NCBI GenBank assembly: GCA_009691245.1
Contig: SHUM01000005.1
Span: 1 to 64,000, forward strand
Direction: 5' to 3'
DNA length: 64,000 bases
Origin: Acidobacteriota bacterium
GTDB lineage: Bacteria; Acidobacteriota; Terriglobia; 2-12-FULL-54-10
Made by a program: the position numbers and the translations under genes. Below are positions 5,801 to 27,181 of the stretch, in pieces. The first letter of the stretch is position 1, and each line of letters begins with the position of its first letter. The notes under the pieces are model-generated. The model searched no databases. It was not told the DNA's origin and saw only the letters and a list, made by a program, of their open reading frames with translations.

Positions 5801-6260
5801 GGCCGTTGCCCCAGGACATTTTCTTTTCAGGCAGCAGCTCGGGCAGCAGGCCCCACTTGGATGGCCCGAACAGGGCGGACTGCGCGCTGATGAGAAACAC
5901 CACCGTCAGCAGCAGCGGCACGCTGCCCAGCGCCAGCGCCAGTACGCCCAGCGACATGGAGAACAGCTCAACGGCTTTTAGCGCGATCGAGACATCGCGC
6001 TTGCTGTAGCGGTCGGCGAGATAGCCGCCCATCATGGAAAACAGGATGAACGGAAGCGCGAACAGCGCGAGGGTCAGGGAGACCAGTGAGTTGCGATCCG
6101 CCTGCGAGAGTCCCAGCCCCAGCACGAAAAAAGTTACCAGCGTGCGGAATGAGAGATCGTTGAATGCTTCCTGAAACGAAGCCGCGAACAGACTCCAGAA
6201 TCCGCGCCTCTGGTAAACGATGGGATCACCGGTCGGCACGTTGGAGGTGGAAGTTGTCAT
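2814..6260 (-). CDS. aas: Fused lysophospholipid transporter / acyltransferase / acyl-ACP synthetase (LplT-Aas type)
   Basis: A 1148-residue three-part protein. Residues about 1-420 are a 12-helix major facilitator transporter like LplT. Residues about 430-640 are a glycerophospholipid acyltransferase with the HxxxxD motif in SNHLSMIDAI (about residue 450). Residues about 640-1148 are an AMP-binding acyl-ACP synthetase with signature FSSGSTGVPKGVV (about 790) and STGD near 990. In E. coli lplT and aas are separate neighbouring genes that flip lysophosphatidylethanolamine inward and re-acylate it; here they are one chain. The likely role is inner-membrane phospholipid repair. It lies 26 bases downstream of the prenyltransferase gene on the same strand and may be cotranscribed. 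The high-numbered ATG follows AGCTGAATTAC, a weak ribosome binding site. Confidence 0.92.
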   Translation of the reverse strand: MTTSTSNVPTGDPIVYQRRGFWSLFAASFQEAFNDLSFRTLVTFFVLGLGLSQADRNSLVSLTLALFALPFILFSMMGGYLADRYSKRDVSIALKAVELFSMSLGVLALALGSVPLLLTVVFLISAQSALFGPSKWGLLPELLPEKKMSWGNGLLQFATYISGIVGTVAGGALSEAYQGRTHWGAAILVGTAFLGFLVMFGIRRTPVENPSRQFRLNQVSELMVQLRTIRSDRTLALAVLGNGYFLFLATLLQANILRYGKDVLELGDTQNGYLQAAVAVGIGVGALAAGYLSGNKIELGLVPLGAVGLVVMSATLSQSDLTFFQVAAALVGLGFAGGFFIVPIGALIQYRPEASQRGGVIAAANWLSWAGAFLAAGVDYLLSSVAGFAPSTVFLFGGVLTLAGAVYALILLPAALLRFLLWLLTVTIYRIRVLGRDNIPENGGALLVSNHLSMIDAILVQASSDRTIRFLMDREWYDKPWLKPFVKLLEVIPVSSHSSARDLLHSLREAHDVVAGGGVACIFAEGQITRTGNLLPFRRGFERIMRGPEGTLDAPIIPVHLDNLWGSIFSYERGRFVWKPPRRIPYPVIVSYGQPMAATATPAEVRVRVQELHPDAFQHHREWLQPLHRCFLSTARRHPFRFAMADARVPKLSWFATLLKTIFLGRRLKKVWVGQEKVGILLPPSVGGALVNYAALIAGKVPVNLNYTASNEIVADCARQCNLKTVITSRLFLEKVPMQVPGKTIFLEDLAQNPRITEKLFALLLAFTPARIIERALGSRRPAALDDIATVIFSSGSTGVPKGVVLTQFNLAANLEQASQIIHFLPADRILGVLPFFHSFGFLACLWLPPAVRIGVVFHPNPTEAKAIGELVRKYAVTILMSTPTFLQNYIRRCEPEEFGSLRVVITGAEKLPQRVVEAFEERFGLRPLEGYGCTECAPLVAANTGDIRAPGMRQVGARRGKIGQPVPGMAVRIVDPETGAPVSMGQPGLLLVRGPNVMTGYLGMPEKTAEVLRDGWYSTGDMAFVDEEGFIEITDRLSRFSKIGGEMVPHIKIEETLQALAGITEQVFAVASLPDEKKGERLVVLHTLNDEQITQCVARLADAPALPNLWKPDKRAYYRVEAIPYLGSGKLDLRRIRELARQMTNTN

Positions 6261-6286
6261 GTAATTCAGCTTTTGCGGTTGCCTGA

Positions 6287-7198
6287 CTACCTTAAGAACC
6301 AGAGTATATCAGCGCTCCAGAAGAGCAACAAACTCAAGCCGATCCAGCCGTTGGTGGTGAAGAACGCGGCGTCCAACTTTGAAAGATCGTCCGGCTTCAC
6401 CAGGCTGTGCTCATAGACGAGCAGCGCGCCAACCACGCCGAGTCCCAGAAAACTGAGCCAGCGCAGTTGTGAAATCCAGGCCAGCCAGATCAGCAACGCC
6501 AGCATCACAATGTGAAACAAGATGGCGACATGAAGCGAGCGCGCAATCCCCCAGCGTTGCGGAATACTGTGCAGCCCCGTGCGCCGATCGAAGTCGATAT
6601 CCTGGCAGGCGTAGAGTACGTCGAAGCCGGCCGTCCACAGCGTTACCGCTCCGGTCAGCAGAAGGATCTCGCCGTTCAGCGTGCCGCGCACGGCGATCCA
6701 GGCGGCGGCGGGCGCGATGCCCAGGCAGAACCCGAGTACGAGATGCGAAAGGAAGGTGATGCGCTTGGTGTAGGAGTATGCGAATAATATGACCAGCGCC
6801 AAAGGCGAAAGTAACAATGCCAATGGATTCAGTTGCGCCGCGGCGAAGACCAGGACCGCGGAAGAAATCACAGCGAATCCTGCGACGTACGCTACGCTCA
6901 ATTGTCCGGCGGGCAGAGCGCGGCCGGCGGTGCGTGGATTGGCGGCGTCAATGCGGCGGTCCACGAGGCGGTTGAAACTCATCGCCGCCGAGCGCGCGCC
7001 GATCATGGCGACGATAATCCATAAAAGTTGATGGCCCGTAGGCCAGCCGCGCGCGGCAAGCAGTCCGCCAATCAACGCAAAGGGCAGCGCGAAGACGGAG
7101 TGCTCCACCTTGATCATCTCCAGCGTGACGCGAAGATTGCGCCAACCGGACAGGGGCCGGACCGAAGCGGAGTCTGGTGGTCTGGATTGCATAGTCAT
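6287..7198 (-). CDS. UbiA-family polyprenyltransferase (MqnP/UbiA type)
   Basis: Integral membrane prenyltransferase of about 303 residues that attaches an isoprenoid chain to an aromatic quinone precursor. The two Asp-rich motifs are visible: NRLVDRRIDAANPRT in the first half and DIDFDRRTGLHSIP in the second. About eight hydrophobic helices are present. In ubiquinone-lacking bacteria this subfamily (MqnP) acts in the futalosine route to menaquinone; whether that applies here cannot be settled, as no other mqn or ubi gene is in the window. I chose ATG at 7198; an in-frame start at 7240 would add an unusual basic leader. Divergent from larB. Confidence 0.85.
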   Translation of the reverse strand: MTMQSRPPDSASVRPLSGWRNLRVTLEMIKVEHSVFALPFALIGGLLAARGWPTGHQLLWIIVAMIGARSAAMSFNRLVDRRIDAANPRTAGRALPAGQLSVAYVAGFAVISSAVLVFAAAQLNPLALLLSPLALVILFAYSYTKRITFLSHLVLGFCLGIAPAAAWIAVRGTLNGEILLLTGAVTLWTAGFDVLYACQDIDFDRRTGLHSIPQRWGIARSLHVAILFHIVMLALLIWLAWISQLRWLSFLGLGVVGALLVYEHSLVKPDDLSKLDAAFFTTNGWIGLSLLLFWSADILWFLR

Positions 7199-21337: not shown

Positions 21338-23407
21338 TCATCGCTCTAGTGCGGGCTCTAGTACGGGCAACCCAAGCTCCAACAGGTACCTAAACGTGGA
21401 ATCGTAGTAGGCGGGTGCACGGGTGGCGTCGATACTATCTCCCGGCGGGACGAAGATGACCATTCCCTGCCGCGCTCGCGTGAGAAGCACACGGTATGCA
21501 TTCCGCAGGTACTGCTGGCGGTCCAACTTGTGTATGGATGTCCACTTGCTTCCACGAAACTCGTTGCAACTCCATCCCGACTGCGCAAACCGGAGGTCCG
21601 CATCCCACGTCATGCAGACCCAGTCGAGCTCGAGTCCTTGCACTTGGAATTCCGTCGCGGCATCTTCGAGGTACCAACTAGACCGCGTGTCGTCAGAAGT
21701 GTTCAGAAACCAGTGCACCGGGTTGATCTCGACTCGAACATCGATAGCGTGCGGCTTGAGGCGCTGAGCCCCAGATGAGGCAACCATTCCAAAACGTTCC
21801 GAGCCGCGGGCATGATCTCGGATCCATTGCTTAGCCAGTTGCAGATCGCGAGTCAGAGCGATGGGGTATCGTTTGGATATCTGGGTTAGGAGTTCACTGG
21901 CCGTACTGTCCTCGCAATCCAGAACCGCCTTCACAAATTGCGACACTGACTCGGCGCGGAATGATCTCATCGAAACGGCGAGATGAAGTTTTTCGTCTTG
22001 AACGACAATGGCGCTTCCGGCAATGGTTTCGAGCGCGTGTCCCGCTGCATACTCGCTGTCAGTAAGATTCGGAGAAATATAAGCGTGCCAGTCTGGAAAT
22101 TTCTCTCGCACGGCATCCAGCCAAGCGGAGATTCCCGCTTCGCCGTCGTTGATTTCCTGCCCGCCTCCCACGAGGCAGATCACTACCGCCCAATCTATGT
22201 GACGGTCAAGATAGGAGATGAGAAATTCCGGTTCTGATTGTGAGAATCCTGGTCGCTTCTTCCTTCTTAGCATGAAATCCGCGGTCTTCCTTTTGTTCCA
22301 CGCCCGTTGCGCTTCGTCGAAGATTACAACGTGATCGACTGGTGGTGCCTGAAGCCTGAGTCCCTCATCCCGAAAATGATGGACGTTCTGGATGAATGCC
22401 TTGATAGGCTGCCCAATGACTCCACGTCGCGTGCTAACTCCTTTTTCACGAAGTCGCGTGATTTCATCGCGCGTGAGCGCTTCCCGAAGCACGGCCACCA
22501 ATGGGCCATTTCCAGACAGAAAAACGGCATGAGTGGGCTGTTCTTCATTACGTTTTTTCGTGGCGACATTGAGGCCAACCAGTGTCTTGCCCGCGCCGGG
22601 CACGCCGGTTACAAACACAATTATCTTGCGCCCACATTGTCTTGCTTCGTCAATGAGTTCCTCCACTCGTTGCGAGGTGACCGTCAGGTTACGAGCGCCG
22701 GCATCGTGTCGGGCAATCGCCTCGACGGAGTGCTGCGAGTAAAGTGCCTGCGCAGCTTCGATAATGGTTGGAGTGGGTTGGTACGGAGACGAGGCCCACG
22801 CTATCGCATCGAGCGGCTTTTCTGTCGCGTGAGATAGGCCCTCCTTTATGAGCTGCGCCAGGCCGTCGGCGTTGGACCGGCTGGGTGGATAGACGCCATC
22901 CGGATGCGGCATGGGCAAGGCCGTGTCAGACCAATGCGATTCGGTCGCGACGAGGATGGGGATGATCGGCGCTTCTTGGCTACCCTTGTGGAAGTTTTTC
23001 AGGTCCAACGAGTAGTCCCAGACTTGATTGAGGTCAGCTCGATGGTATTCCGATTCACCGATCTTAAATTCGATGGCGAAGATGACGTTGCCTGCAATCA
23101 AGACTGCGTCGAGGCGACTGCCGATGCGGGGAACGACGAACTCCAGAAAGAGCGTCCCCTCCACGCCAACTAGAGCAGACTTCAGGACAGTGATCTGAAG
23201 GAGCCAAGCATTCCGCTGGGCCAGCTCAACTGAGAAGTTGCTGTTTGTGATAAGGGCGCCGATGATTTCTTCAGGCGTTGCACGGATCAGTGCCGCAACA
23301 TCTGCGGAGTAATAGGAGTTCGACAGCGGTGGGATTGACGAAGAGGAAGTCGGGAGCACAGGAACATTTTCCATTAGTGGATATCTTTCGCCGTCATCAT
23401 CATACAC
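21338..23407 (-). CDS. PD-(D/E)XK nuclease-like domain fused to DUF2075 superfamily 1 helicase
   Basis: 689 residues. The N-terminal part (about 60-160) has a nuclease-like pattern, RLDAVLIAG (Asp100) followed by AIEFKIGE (Glu113-x-Lys115) and QVWDYSLDLK, the D...ExK arrangement of PD-(D/E)XK enzymes. The C-terminal part is a DUF2075/Schlafen-3-like helicase: Walker A FVTGVPGAGKTLVGL (268-275), Walker B VVIFDEAQRAW (DEAQ 364-367) and a motif VI-like NAYRVLLTRARQGMVIF near the end. Such fusions suggest a nucleic-acid-degrading motor, possibly anti-phage; this is inference. No partner gene is adjacent. Start GTG 23407 or ATG 23374 are both possible. Flanked by repeats and lower in GC than its neighbours. 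Confidence 0.85.
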   Translation of the reverse strand: MYDDDGERYPLMENVPVLPTSSSSIPPLSNSYYSADVAALIRATPEEIIGALITNSNFSVELAQRNAWLLQITVLKSALVGVEGTLFLEFVVPRIGSRLDAVLIAGNVIFAIEFKIGESEYHRADLNQVWDYSLDLKNFHKGSQEAPIIPILVATESHWSDTALPMPHPDGVYPPSRSNADGLAQLIKEGLSHATEKPLDAIAWASSPYQPTPTIIEAAQALYSQHSVEAIARHDAGARNLTVTSQRVEELIDEARQCGRKIIVFVTGVPGAGKTLVGLNVATKKRNEEQPTHAVFLSGNGPLVAVLREALTRDEITRLREKGVSTRRGVIGQPIKAFIQNVHHFRDEGLRLQAPPVDHVVIFDEAQRAWNKRKTADFMLRRKKRPGFSQSEPEFLISYLDRHIDWAVVICLVGGGQEINDGEAGISAWLDAVREKFPDWHAYISPNLTDSEYAAGHALETIAGSAIVVQDEKLHLAVSMRSFRAESVSQFVKAVLDCEDSTASELLTQISKRYPIALTRDLQLAKQWIRDHARGSERFGMVASSGAQRLKPHAIDVRVEINPVHWFLNTSDDTRSSWYLEDAATEFQVQGLELDWVCMTWDADLRFAQSGWSCNEFRGSKWTSIHKLDRQQYLRNAYRVLLTRARQGMVIFVPPGDSIDATRAPAYYDSTFRYLLELGLPVLEPALER

Positions 23408-23442
23408 CTGTCAGATGAAGGTTAGGGAACGTCTGCCTCTGC

Positions 23443-23684
23443 TTGCCCGGAGGGCAAGGCTGTGAATAGCCGTAGGTGCCAACCTACGGACCGCGCGCCA
23501 AGAATTGACAGCAACCCCGGACAGGGGTTGACCTCCGCTGGTGGAGTCTGCGTCCGCATCCTGCGACGCGGATCGTGTTGCCGGATCGCGGGAAACGTCC
23601 GGCCCTGTCAGGGCCGCAATCTGGTTTGGTCATTCATTCCGTAGGTTTCACCTACGGCTATTCACGGGGTTGCCCTCCGGGCAA
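23443..23684. repeat. About 240-bp element with 46-nt terminal inverted repeats
   Basis: Left arm 23443-23489 and right arm 23639-23684 are near-perfect inverted copies. They contain TGAATAGCCGTAGGT and TTGCCCGGAGGGCAA; each arm is itself partly self-complementary (CCGTAGGT with ACCTACGG). Weaker pairing continues outward to about 23428 and 23702. The interior has further hairpins, for example CAACCCC with GGGGTTG at 23512-23530 and GGCCCTG with CAGGGCC near 23601-23615. No protein is encoded. It resembles a REPIN- or MITE-like element. Confidence 0.8.
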
Positions 23685-23795
23685 CGGCGGAGGTCTGCGT
23701 TAATGCCCGCTTCCCGCCTCCCATTTTCCACATCTTGATTGCTTGTCCCTTACTCCCTATTCCCCACTCACTACTCCCTGATTTTCATCCGCCCC

Positions 23796-23879
23796 GCCGA
23801 TGGAACCGCAAACTCTAACGATTTGGTGGATTCGGAAAAATTGGCGGCCGATGGAACCGCAAGCTCTGACGATTTGGTG
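23796..23879. repeat. 51-bp-period tandem repeat, two copies
   Basis: GCCGATGGAACCGCAA opens both copies, at 23796 and 23847; 31 of 33 positions match over the conserved part ending GATTTGGTG. A degenerate run of TTTGG-rich units follows to about 23925. Confidence 0.7.
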
Positions 23880-24175
23880 AAATTGGAATATTTGGTCAGG
23901 TTGAAATATTTGGATTCTTTGGAGGCGGGTGGGGGCAAAATGTCGATCCGGGATTTCCCAAATCTCCAATCCCTAATCCCCAATTTCCAACCCCCAACCT
24001 CCATTCGCTGGTTTGTCAATCTGGCCAGAGTGGTCAGAACCGTGAACGTGTGCACTTTGGGCTGGGCTGATTCTTCCGCAGATTTTGGGAGTGGCGGAGT
24101 GGGACCAAATTGGAAGAAATGGATGCCCAATTTTCCTCGCCGCGGGTTTTTTGAAATGATCGGAAATGGATGCGA

Positions 24176-24204
24176 TTGACCCGGTGCAACCCCCGCGTTA
24201 TCCT
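24176..24204 (+). promoter_or_regulatory. Probable promoter of uvrA
   Basis: TTGACC (24176-24181) and TATCCT (24199-24204) are separated by 17 bases, giving a plausible sigma-70 promoter about 80 bases before the uvrA start. No clear LexA box was recognised around it. Confidence 0.5.
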
Positions 24205-24220
24205 AATAGGTTCCGGTCTT

Positions 24221-24248
24221 GTCACCAGATGGCGCTATCCCTGGTGAC
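24221..24248 (+). promoter_or_regulatory. Hairpin in the uvrA leader
   Basis: Perfect 8-bp inverted repeat GTCACCAG (24221-24228) and CTGGTGAC (24241-24248), lying between the predicted promoter and the uvrA start. It could be an operator or an mRNA leader structure; function is not known. Confidence 0.4.
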
Positions 24249-24286
24249 GATCCTTCAGAGATCGAACCGGAGGGCGCAGGTACGCG

Positions 24287-27181
24287 ATGAGCATAGACCG
24301 GCTGACGGTCCGAGGGGCCCGCCAGCACAATCTGCAAGACATCACGGTGGAGATTCCCCGCAACTCGCTGACCGTGGTCACGGGGTTGAGCGGCTCGGGG
24401 AAGTCCTCGCTCGCCTTTGACACCATCTACGCGGAGGGCCAGCGGCGGTATGTCGAGACACTTTCCACCTACGCGCGGCAGTTCCTCGATCAGATGGAGC
24501 GGCCCGACGTGGACACCATCGAGGGCCTCAGCCCGGCCATCTCCATCGACCAGAAGACCACTTCACGCAGCCCGCGCTCCACCGTGGGAACCATCACGGA
24601 AATCTACGATTATCTGCGACTGCTCTTCGCCACCATCGGCGTTCCGCACTGTCCGCAATGCAATCGTCCGATTACGCGGCAGCCGGTGGCGCAGATTGTC
24701 GCGCAGATTCTGGCGCTGAAGGGCAGCGACCGGATCATGATTCTGGCGCCGCTGGTGCGGGGCCGCAAAGGCGAGTTCAGGAAAGAGCTGGAAAAGCTGG
24801 GCCGCGATGGCTACATCCGCGCGCGCATTGACGGCGAGCTGCGCGGCTTGGACGATCCCGATCAGCCGATCATTCTCGACAAGCGCAAGAACCACACGAT
24901 CGAAGTGCTGGTGGATCGCGTGTTGCTCAAGCCCGGCATTGAAAAGCGTCTGGAAGCCTCCATTGCCACGGCGATGAAGTTGGCGAGCGGTCTGGTTCAG
25001 GTGGCCGTGGTGGATGGCGAAGAGTTTCTATTTTCCGAATCGCTGGCCTGCGCCGAGTGTGGCACCAGCGTCCCTGTATTTGAACCGCGCTCATTTTCAT
25101 TCAACAGCAAGTACGGCGCGTGCGAATCCTGCCAGGGGTTGGGCAGTAAGTGGGATTTTGATCCCGCAAAATTGATCGTCGATTGGTCGAAGCCTTTGCT
25201 CGATGGCGCGCTGGGACCCGCGCTGGGCGCACTCTATCCGCAGCGCATGATAGAAGAATTGGCCACGGAGCAGAAGGTTGACCTGAAGATCGCGTTCAGC
25301 GAATTACCGCAGCGAGTGCAGGATATGGCTCTCTACGGGAATATTCCTGGAAAGCCTGGAACCAAGTCGAGCAAAAAAGTCACGGGATTGATTCCTCTGC
25401 TGCGAGAGAATCTTGAATCCAGCACTTCTGAGGGGTACCGAGAATGGCTGACGCAATACATGTCGGCTAGTCCCTGCGGCGTATGTCACGGCAAACGCCT
25501 GCGACCGGAGAGTCTGGCGGTAAAGGTGCAAGGACTGTCGATTGGCGATCTGACGGCAGCGCCCGTCAGCCGCGCTCATGAAGTATTCTCACGCGTGAAG
25601 CTGAGTGAGCGAGAAGAGCGCATCGCTGGACGCATCGTCAGTGAGATACGGAATCGTTTGAATTTCCTGCTGGCCGTGGGGCTTGGCTACCTCAGCCTGG
25701 ACCGCTCCGCGCCGACGCTATCGGGTGGGGAAGGTCAGCGCATTCGTCTGGCGGCGCAAATCGGTTCGAAATTGCGCGGCGTGCTCTATGTGCTGGACGA
25801 GCCGTCGATTGGGCTGCACCATCGAGACAACTCGAAGTTGATTGAGACACTCGAAAATTTGAGAGACCTGGGCAATACGGTTCTGGTGGTCGAGCACGAT
25901 GAAGACACCATTCGTCGCGCCGATTATGTGGTGGACCTTGGCCCCGGCGCAGGACGGCATGGTGGCCACGTGGTAGCCACTGGCACGCCGCGTGATATTG
26001 AGGCATCCGAGGCCTCACTCACCGGCCAGTATCTTTCCGGCAAGCTCTCCATTCCAATGGCGGCGAAGCGCCGCTCCCCCAATGGCCGTCAGCTCATCAT
26101 CCACACGGCGCGTGCCAACAATCTAAAAGGCATTGATGTCACGTTTCCACTCGGACTGATGATCGTTATCACTGGCGTATCGGGCTCCGGAAAGTCAACG
26201 CTGGTGAACGATATCCTCTACCGGTCGCTATCGCAGAAACTTTACGGGGCGAAAGAAGCTCCGGGAGCGCATGGCCGGATCGAGGGTGTCGAGCATATTG
26301 ATAAAGTGATCTGTATTGATCAGACGCCAATCGGGCGCACGCCGCGCTCGAACCCGGCGACTTACACGGGAGTCTTCACGCCACTGCGTGAATTGTTCGC
26401 CATGCTGCCGGAGTCGCGCGAGCGAGGATACAAGCCGGGCCGCTTCAGCTTCAACGTGCGCGGCGGACGTTGTGAAGCCTGTCAGGGAGATGGCCAGCGG
26501 CGGATTGAAATGAACTTTCTTCCCGACGTTTACGTAACGTGCGACATCTGCCGAGGCCGCCGCTACAACGCCGAGACGCTCTCGGTTCGCTATAAGAATC
26601 ATTCCATCGCGGACCTGTTGGAGACCACGGCTCAGGATAGCCTCCCGCTGCTGGAGAATATCCCCACCATTGCGCAACGGCTGCGCACGGTGGTGGAGGT
26701 CGGGCTTGGCTATTTGCATCTGGGGCAGTCCTCCACGACGCTTTCCGGCGGCGAAGCGCAGCGCATGAAGCTGGCCCGCGAGTTGAGCCGGCGACAGACC
26801 GGCAAGACGCTGTATATATTGGATGAGCCGACCACCGGGTTGCACTTCGACGATATCCGTAAATTGCTGGAAGTCTTGCAACGCTTGACGGAGCTGGGCA
26901 ACACCGTCATCATCATCGAGCATCACCTCGACGTGGTGAAGTCCGCCGACTGGGTGATTGATTTAGGGCCCGATGGTGGCGACGGTGGAGGTCGCGTGGT
27001 AGCCGCGGGCACTCCCGAGCAAGTCGCGCGCGTGGAGCAATCTCACACAGGCGCGGCGCTCCGGCAGATATTTGCCAAGGCTGCAGCGGCTATCAAGACT
27101 AAAGGCTCGTCCGGAAGTGGGACACGTTCGCGAGCGAAAAAAGTCGTGGGAGCAAGTAAGGCAGGCAGGCCGAAAGGGTAG
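24287..27181 (+). CDS. uvrA: Excinuclease ABC subunit A
   Basis: DNA damage sensor of nucleotide excision repair; a dimer that loads UvrB on lesions. The 964-residue protein has two ABC modules. The first Walker A is [12 protein letters not shown] near residue 32, the second [12 protein letters not shown] near 628. Zinc-finger cysteines are visible in [20 protein letters not shown], and CEACQGDG and [10 protein letters not shown] in the second half. ABC signatures [12 protein letters not shown] and [12 protein letters not shown] are intact. The last 45 residues are a basic Lys/Arg/Ser-rich tail. The next gene begins 15 bases downstream. Confidence 0.97.

Follow-up and report, generated by a model that had tools for sequence, protein, structure and literature searches.

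Anatomy and folding of the element

The window, which is the whole stretch of 64,000 nucleotides analysed, contains a gene for a Schlafen group 3 helicase-domain protein (21338..23407, minus strand; PF09848, 265 bits) and, divergent from it, the excinuclease UvrA gene (24287..27181, plus strand), both given as context only. Between them, upstream of the Schlafen gene, a repeat search and a covariance model of the repeat unit delimited an intergenic element (23442..23685, no strand assigned) made of two inverted three-hairpin units and a middle of about 70 nt. It is free of overlapping ORFs of at least 80 aa, in agreement with its initial annotation as non-coding. The unit model, R1, matched the window at 23441-23490 on the minus strand (69.8 bits) and at 23638-23686 on the plus strand (73.9 bits).

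The unit is about 92 bp long and its parts follow a fixed order, hp1 being the inner hairpin and hp3 the outer one: GTC and hp1, about 22-25 nt, hp2 (CCGTAGGT..ACCTACGG), a CTATTCAC spacer and hp3. In the left unit (minus strand), hp3 (CTTGCCC-GGA-GGGCAAG, 23442..23458) forms the outer end of the element and is supported by covariation and column conservation; it is followed by a spacer defined by column conservation (GCTGTGAATAG, 23459..23469), ending in ATAG (23466-23469), the four bases that form the foot on the 5' side of hp2 and occupy the position matched in REPs by the GTAG tag. Left hp2 (CCGTAGGT-GCCA-ACCTACGG, 23470..23489) is supported by covariation and by comparison of orthologs, and left hp1 (CAACCCC-GGACA-GGGGTTG, 23512..23530) is of the CAA type and GTC-tagged on the unit strand. 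The middle (23531..23599, no strand assigned) was found by blast to recur at other loci. The right unit (plus strand) consists of a CGG-type hp1 preceded by GTC (CGGCCCT-GTC-AGGGCCG, 23600..23616), an hp2 supported by covariation (CCGTAGGT-TTC-ACCTACGG, 23639..23657), a conserved single-stranded spacer identified by column conservation (CTATTCACGGG, 23658..23668) and an hp3 (GTTGCCC-TCC-GGGCAAC, 23669..23685) that forms the other outer end, again supported by covariation and column conservation.

Across the family, hp1 is either CAACCCC..GGGGTTG or CGGCCCC..GGGGCCG, hp3 conforms to NNTGCCC..GGGCANN, and the CTATTCACGG spacer between hp2 and hp3 is nearly invariant. The foot of hp2 is ATAG in 64 of 68 units and GTAG in the other four (CTAT and CTAC on the unit strand). 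In the same 68 units, conservation stops at the outer base of hp3, with columns just beyond it carrying about 0.1-0.3 bits. By-eye counts showed that nearly all doublets of the window's own genome (G000), of its sister species (G001) and of genome G003 combine one CAA-type with one CGG-type hp1, so that the two ends of a doublet are unlike; in the doublets of genome G024, hp1 is of the CAA type at both ends.

The terminal inverted repeat initially described here is present. The arms 23443-23478 and 23649-23684 are 92% complementary over 36 nt without a gap, and the proposed 46-nt repeat matches at 90% with one gap (23443-23490 against 23638-23684); its reading as a single long stem did not hold, as the arms are two copies of one unit. 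The palindromic character noted for the arms corresponds to two complete hairpins in each, and the internal hairpins to a third one just inside each arm. The weaker pairing said to continue outwards falls outside the element: conservation drops past hp3, and an orthologous copy has a different left outer flank. The degree of order is beyond chance, DNA and RNA folds of 23425-23705 being about 11 s.d. below dinucleotide shuffles, with none of 200 shuffles as good.

In an alignment of 49 units the hairpins covary: 93.1% of cells are paired and the covariation score is 0.151, compared to 0.060 in shuffled and 0.016-0.057 in slid controls. These figures are to be read as support and not as probabilities, since the shuffle control leaves relatedness in. 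The basal pair of hp3 alternates between CG (17 units), GC (17) and AU (2). When the same positions were compared in 12 doublets, complementarity within hairpins was retained at 64/72 whereas identity from arm to arm was retained at 30/72. Local pairing is thus kept and arm-to-arm matching is not, which indicates that what is conserved is each local hairpin, the long inverted repeat being a by-product of carrying two units; the idea that one long stem joining the ends is the functional unit was rejected.

Copies, distribution and change between orthologs

The 3.43 Mb genome carrying the window gave 39 blast matches, corresponding to 22 units at 14 places, so the element is not the single copy that would have spoken against a repeat family; 22 units is a low copy number for REPs. 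Among 399 genomes of the class, the unit covariance model matched 23, in three families. In 35 of 36 close pairs the units are in -/+ orientation with hp3 outward, and the spacers of most close pairs lie 102-183 nt apart. When 84,980 species genomes, a set that possibly leaves out the genome of the window, were scanned for the pattern, real matches came only from three Acidobacteriota metagenome-assembled genomes. A wide spread across phyla was considered and rejected, the sole Deltaproteobacteria match (L042) having no surrounding hairpins and being due to chance. Viral, phage or plasmid carriage was searched for and none was found. The middle of the window copy, which lies outside the hairpins, is found again at locus L015 and at two places in locus L039 of the sister species, and stretches containing the middle are 72-84% identical at other loci of the own and sister genomes. 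As copies that are not orthologous share this non-hairpin middle, doublets must have been copied in one piece.

Other repeats occur in the vicinity of the copies. An interspersed repeat (GATGGAACCGCAAACTCT..., GTCAGAACCGTGAACGTGTGCACTTTGGGC), separate from the element, lies at 23790-24075 of the window and also at L015 1519-1780, L039 5306-5599, L048 2374-2453 and L130 1971-2036, often beside hairpin elements. A further repeat of about 100 bp (L023 253-352) has dozens of matches in each of G001 and G003. Arrays of the form AGCCCC..GGGGCG - GTAG - CCCGGGC..GCCCGGG - AGCCCC..GGGGCG were seen at L016 900-1010 and L018 1220-1400. The AGCCCC..GGGGCG and GTAG CCCGGGC.. repeats beside several copies of the own genome conform to the hairpin arrangement seen in the flanks of related transposases and resemble the flanks of a transposase gene of that genome (C18, locus L125); the arrays represent a second three-hairpin family, of which this gene is likely the transposase.

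An orthologous copy (L049) is present at the same site in the sister species, at about 90% identity. Comparison of the five clear ortholog pairs revealed a structural difference at hp2 in all of them. In the window/L049 and L024/L132 pairs, hp2 was exchanged whole in both arms at once with the surroundings unchanged, CCGTAGGT..ACCTACGG standing for CCGTCCCGGC..GCCGGGACGG; left hp2 of the window (23470-23489) is replaced whole by CCGTCCCGGCGTGCCGGGACGG in the ortholog (L049 4440-4490). An extra module is joined at hp2 in the L018/L128 pair, the remainder of the element is lost directly after hp2 in L021/L129, and homology stops at hp2 in L015/L039, where a transposase copy starts. The element at L021 1200-1390 is interrupted by a cluster of hairpins of the kind GGCACGGT..ACCGTGCC and similar; this hairpin kind is seen on the flanks of a different Y1 transposase encoded in that genome (L032), so that one repeat family lies inside another. 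TnpAREP cuts adjacent to its GTAG-hairpin (PMC8266576), and by analogy the breakpoints would fit cutting at hp2; recombination between near-identical palindromes could also yield them.

Insertion sites were examined in several ways. In G107, a genome of the same genus as G024, the intergenic region syntenic to L044 of G024 (L180) lacks the element, with flanks too diverged for its exact ends to be placed. The search gave no precise empty site and no readable target sequence. Comparison of concatenated flanks with the sister genome gave only shared copies as readable sites; at L023 the left flank matched another repeat; and on the topA side there was no clean empty site, the neighbouring gene differing in G003 and topA not being found in G001. 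With a close transposase missing from its genome and its ortholog at the same site in the sister species, the window copy is probably old and now immobile, a stranded relic.

The linked Y1 transposase and its three-hairpin ends

At L039 of the sister species, an intact gene for a Y1 transposase of 148 aa (5908-6354) lies between units, hp1 beginning about 10 nt past its stop codon. Homologues bracketed by units are found in G107, G081, G151 and G187, and G024 has one that has decayed; units are present on both sides at all six loci (L039, L082, L099-L102), and all six genomes are among the 23 matched by the unit model. In G081, G151 and G187 the hairpin sequences are altered (CCACGGGT.., CCGTGGGT.., with spacer CTATTCATG or CTAATGATATTGG) and their order is kept. 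The six bracketed transposases constitute one subfamily with 56-100% identity, the next relatives in the class being at most 46% identical; in the class-wide search, CTATTCAC units were absent at the 25 loci of these relatives that were examined. The same search found no member of the subfamily in the own genome, where the best match has 40% identity. The six Y1 transposases of the own genome were rejected as candidate mobilisers, since none is accompanied by CTATTCAC units; several have hairpins of their own.

The linked protein passes the cut-offs of PF01797 (88.8 vs 23) and of the NCBIfam IS200 model NF033573 (75.6 vs 55) and fails that of NCBIfam REP_Tyr_transpos (32.7 vs 80). H54 and H56 of the HUH motif and Y114 are invariant in aligned relatives. 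The tyrosine motifs (YIKHQPEHH, YIKRQEEHH, YIKNQEEHH, YVKAQEEHH and YVKGQEEHH) have the form Y---Q--HH, and by this motif the transposase is subclass 1.2-like.

Related transposases were found in 94 of the 399 class genomes (clan match at E<=1e-15). For 30 such loci, the upstream flank was compared with the reverse complement of the downstream flank, with 870 mismatched pairs as control. At 24 of the 30 loci, the score reached at least the 95th percentile of mismatched pairs (46), and some were far above it. By eye, most flanks are composed of hp3, about 10 nt, N[T/C]AG and hp2, about 20-25 nt, hp1 and the gene. Judged on these alignments, mirror-image three-hairpin ends appear to be general for the transposase clan in this class; as far as we can tell, such ends of transposases of this kind are undescribed in the openly accessible literature.

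Origin of the element and relation to known systems

Combined, these results point to the element being non-autonomous, REPIN/MITE-like and derived from a Y1-transposase element, a reading to which we assign a probability of roughly 85%. In structure, it has both ends of an IS200-like Y1-transposase element but not the gene, with three hairpins per end in mirror image. We propose that a Y1 (HUH) transposase of the linked family (P0001) would act on single-stranded DNA, for instance the lagging-strand template, recognise the foot and hp2, cleave adjacent to them and move or copy the doublet, with hp1 and hp3 as markers of either side. It is the breakpoints that suggest cleavage at hp2.

The REPIN/MITE half of the initial proposal agrees with the dispersal of the element, its doublet geometry, the covariation and the bracketed Y1 genes, whereas the structured-RNA half found no positive support. 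An RNA kept for its fold (a regulatory leader, a small RNA or a terminator-like structure) would account for the strong RNA fold (z about -10.9), and the covariation of the hairpins is also expected from RNA selection. However, the element is mirror-symmetric and hence presents the same structure on both strands, its long-range pairing is not conserved, 23000-24300 matched no Rfam covariance model at E<=1, the copies have unrelated genes as neighbours, several copies lying between facing gene 3' ends on a rough ORF reading, and units bracket a transposase of single-stranded DNA in six genomes; we regard this explanation as very improbable. A classical MITE with long terminal inverted repeats, mobilised by a DDE transposase, scarcely deserves credence: long inverted ends and a non-coding interior would suit it, but the ends are arrays of short hairpins in which local pairing and not end-to-end complementarity is conserved, the gene found elsewhere between the same ends is a Y1 transposase, and visual inspection of the two ends of the window copy showed no target-site duplication.

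REPs have chromosomal roles in other bacteria, such as gyrase or IHF binding, transcription end or fork pausing, and the units could be a REP/REPIN population kept for a role of this sort, with the transposase as ancestral source only. The retention of the sister-species ortholog and the lack of a close transposase in the own genome favour this possibility, which is nevertheless unlikely given the patchy distribution (4 of 41 genomes searched) and the hp2 exchanges, truncations and interruptions seen between orthologs.

The preferred reading, a derivative of a Y1-transposase element, brings the element close to several known systems. With REPIN/BIME and their RAYT (TnpAREP, 'REPtron'; PMC3116915, PMC8266576, PMC6006769) it shares dispersed palindromic units paired in inverted orientation, a hairpin with an NTAG foot immediately on its 5' side and, elsewhere, a Y1 gene bracketed by the same units. 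The REPIN/BIME unit is one hairpin of 20-40 nt, whereas the unit here has three hairpins in about 92 nt, and RAYTs and their REPs have a GTAG foot and the class 2 Y---NP motif; with a Y---Q--HH transposase and a mostly ATAG foot, strict membership of RAYT/REPIN fails. The Y---Q--HH signature (YIKHQPEHH here) and the single intact gene copy in the genome carrying it are shared with subclass 1.2 of the IS200/IS605 TnpA (PMC6006769), and the subterminal hairpins on both sides of the gene, seen at six loci, with IS200/IS605 Y1 transposons. Typical terminal structures are generally missing from subclass 1.2 as described by Quentin et al. (2018, PMC6006769), who place it mostly in Cyanobacteria and Bacteroidetes, whereas these Acidobacteriota relatives have mirror-image three-hairpin ends and non-autonomous doublets.

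TIRtrons/TIRYTs, known from Acidobacteria among others, are Y1 transposases with long flanking TIRs, of which some are self-complementary and some belong to repeat families (Di Nocera et al. 2013, PMC3733652), and have in common with the present case a Y1 transposase flanked by long terminal inverted repeats. Of 26 TIRYTs, 20 belong to subclass 2.1 (HTH or DnaA-like C-terminus), six to 2.2 and 2.5 and none to 1.2, and the majority of their flanking repeats carry the motif GGGG[AT][CG]A[CG] (PMC6006769); unlike subclass 2.1, the present 148-aa protein has the core and no such C-terminal extension. The class 3 TnpAY1 of Solibacter usitatus, with about 600 dispersed hairpins, several atypical ones flanking the Y1 gene (PMC6006769), resembles the present system in its Acidobacteria host and in having several hairpins beside the gene, but it uses a CnGA foot and the Y-motif YV[VI][AENY]EQ in place of the NTAG foot and Y---Q--HH. 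Hairpin-ended Y1 elements and their passengers are known in outline; relative to the openly accessible literature, the present variant is new as far as we can judge.

A broader proposal, which we hold tentatively and at slightly less than even odds, is that this subclass-1.2-like clan of Acidobacteriota is a third kind beside IS200/IS605 and RAYT/REPIN, with three-hairpin compound ends, an NTAG/NCAG foot on the middle hairpin, doublets proper to each family, and the middle hairpin as the point of cutting and exchange.

In this system, Y1 transposases with the subclass 1.2 motif, described as devoid of typical termini or IS properties, are associated with elaborate conserved ends and with passenger elements, and this in a phylum outside the main hosts named for that subclass. 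The foot and hp2, set between hp1 and hp3, provide a concrete DNA substrate for in vitro testing of the action of the enzyme, and the same substrate also bears on how REP-like repeats arise from IS-like elements.
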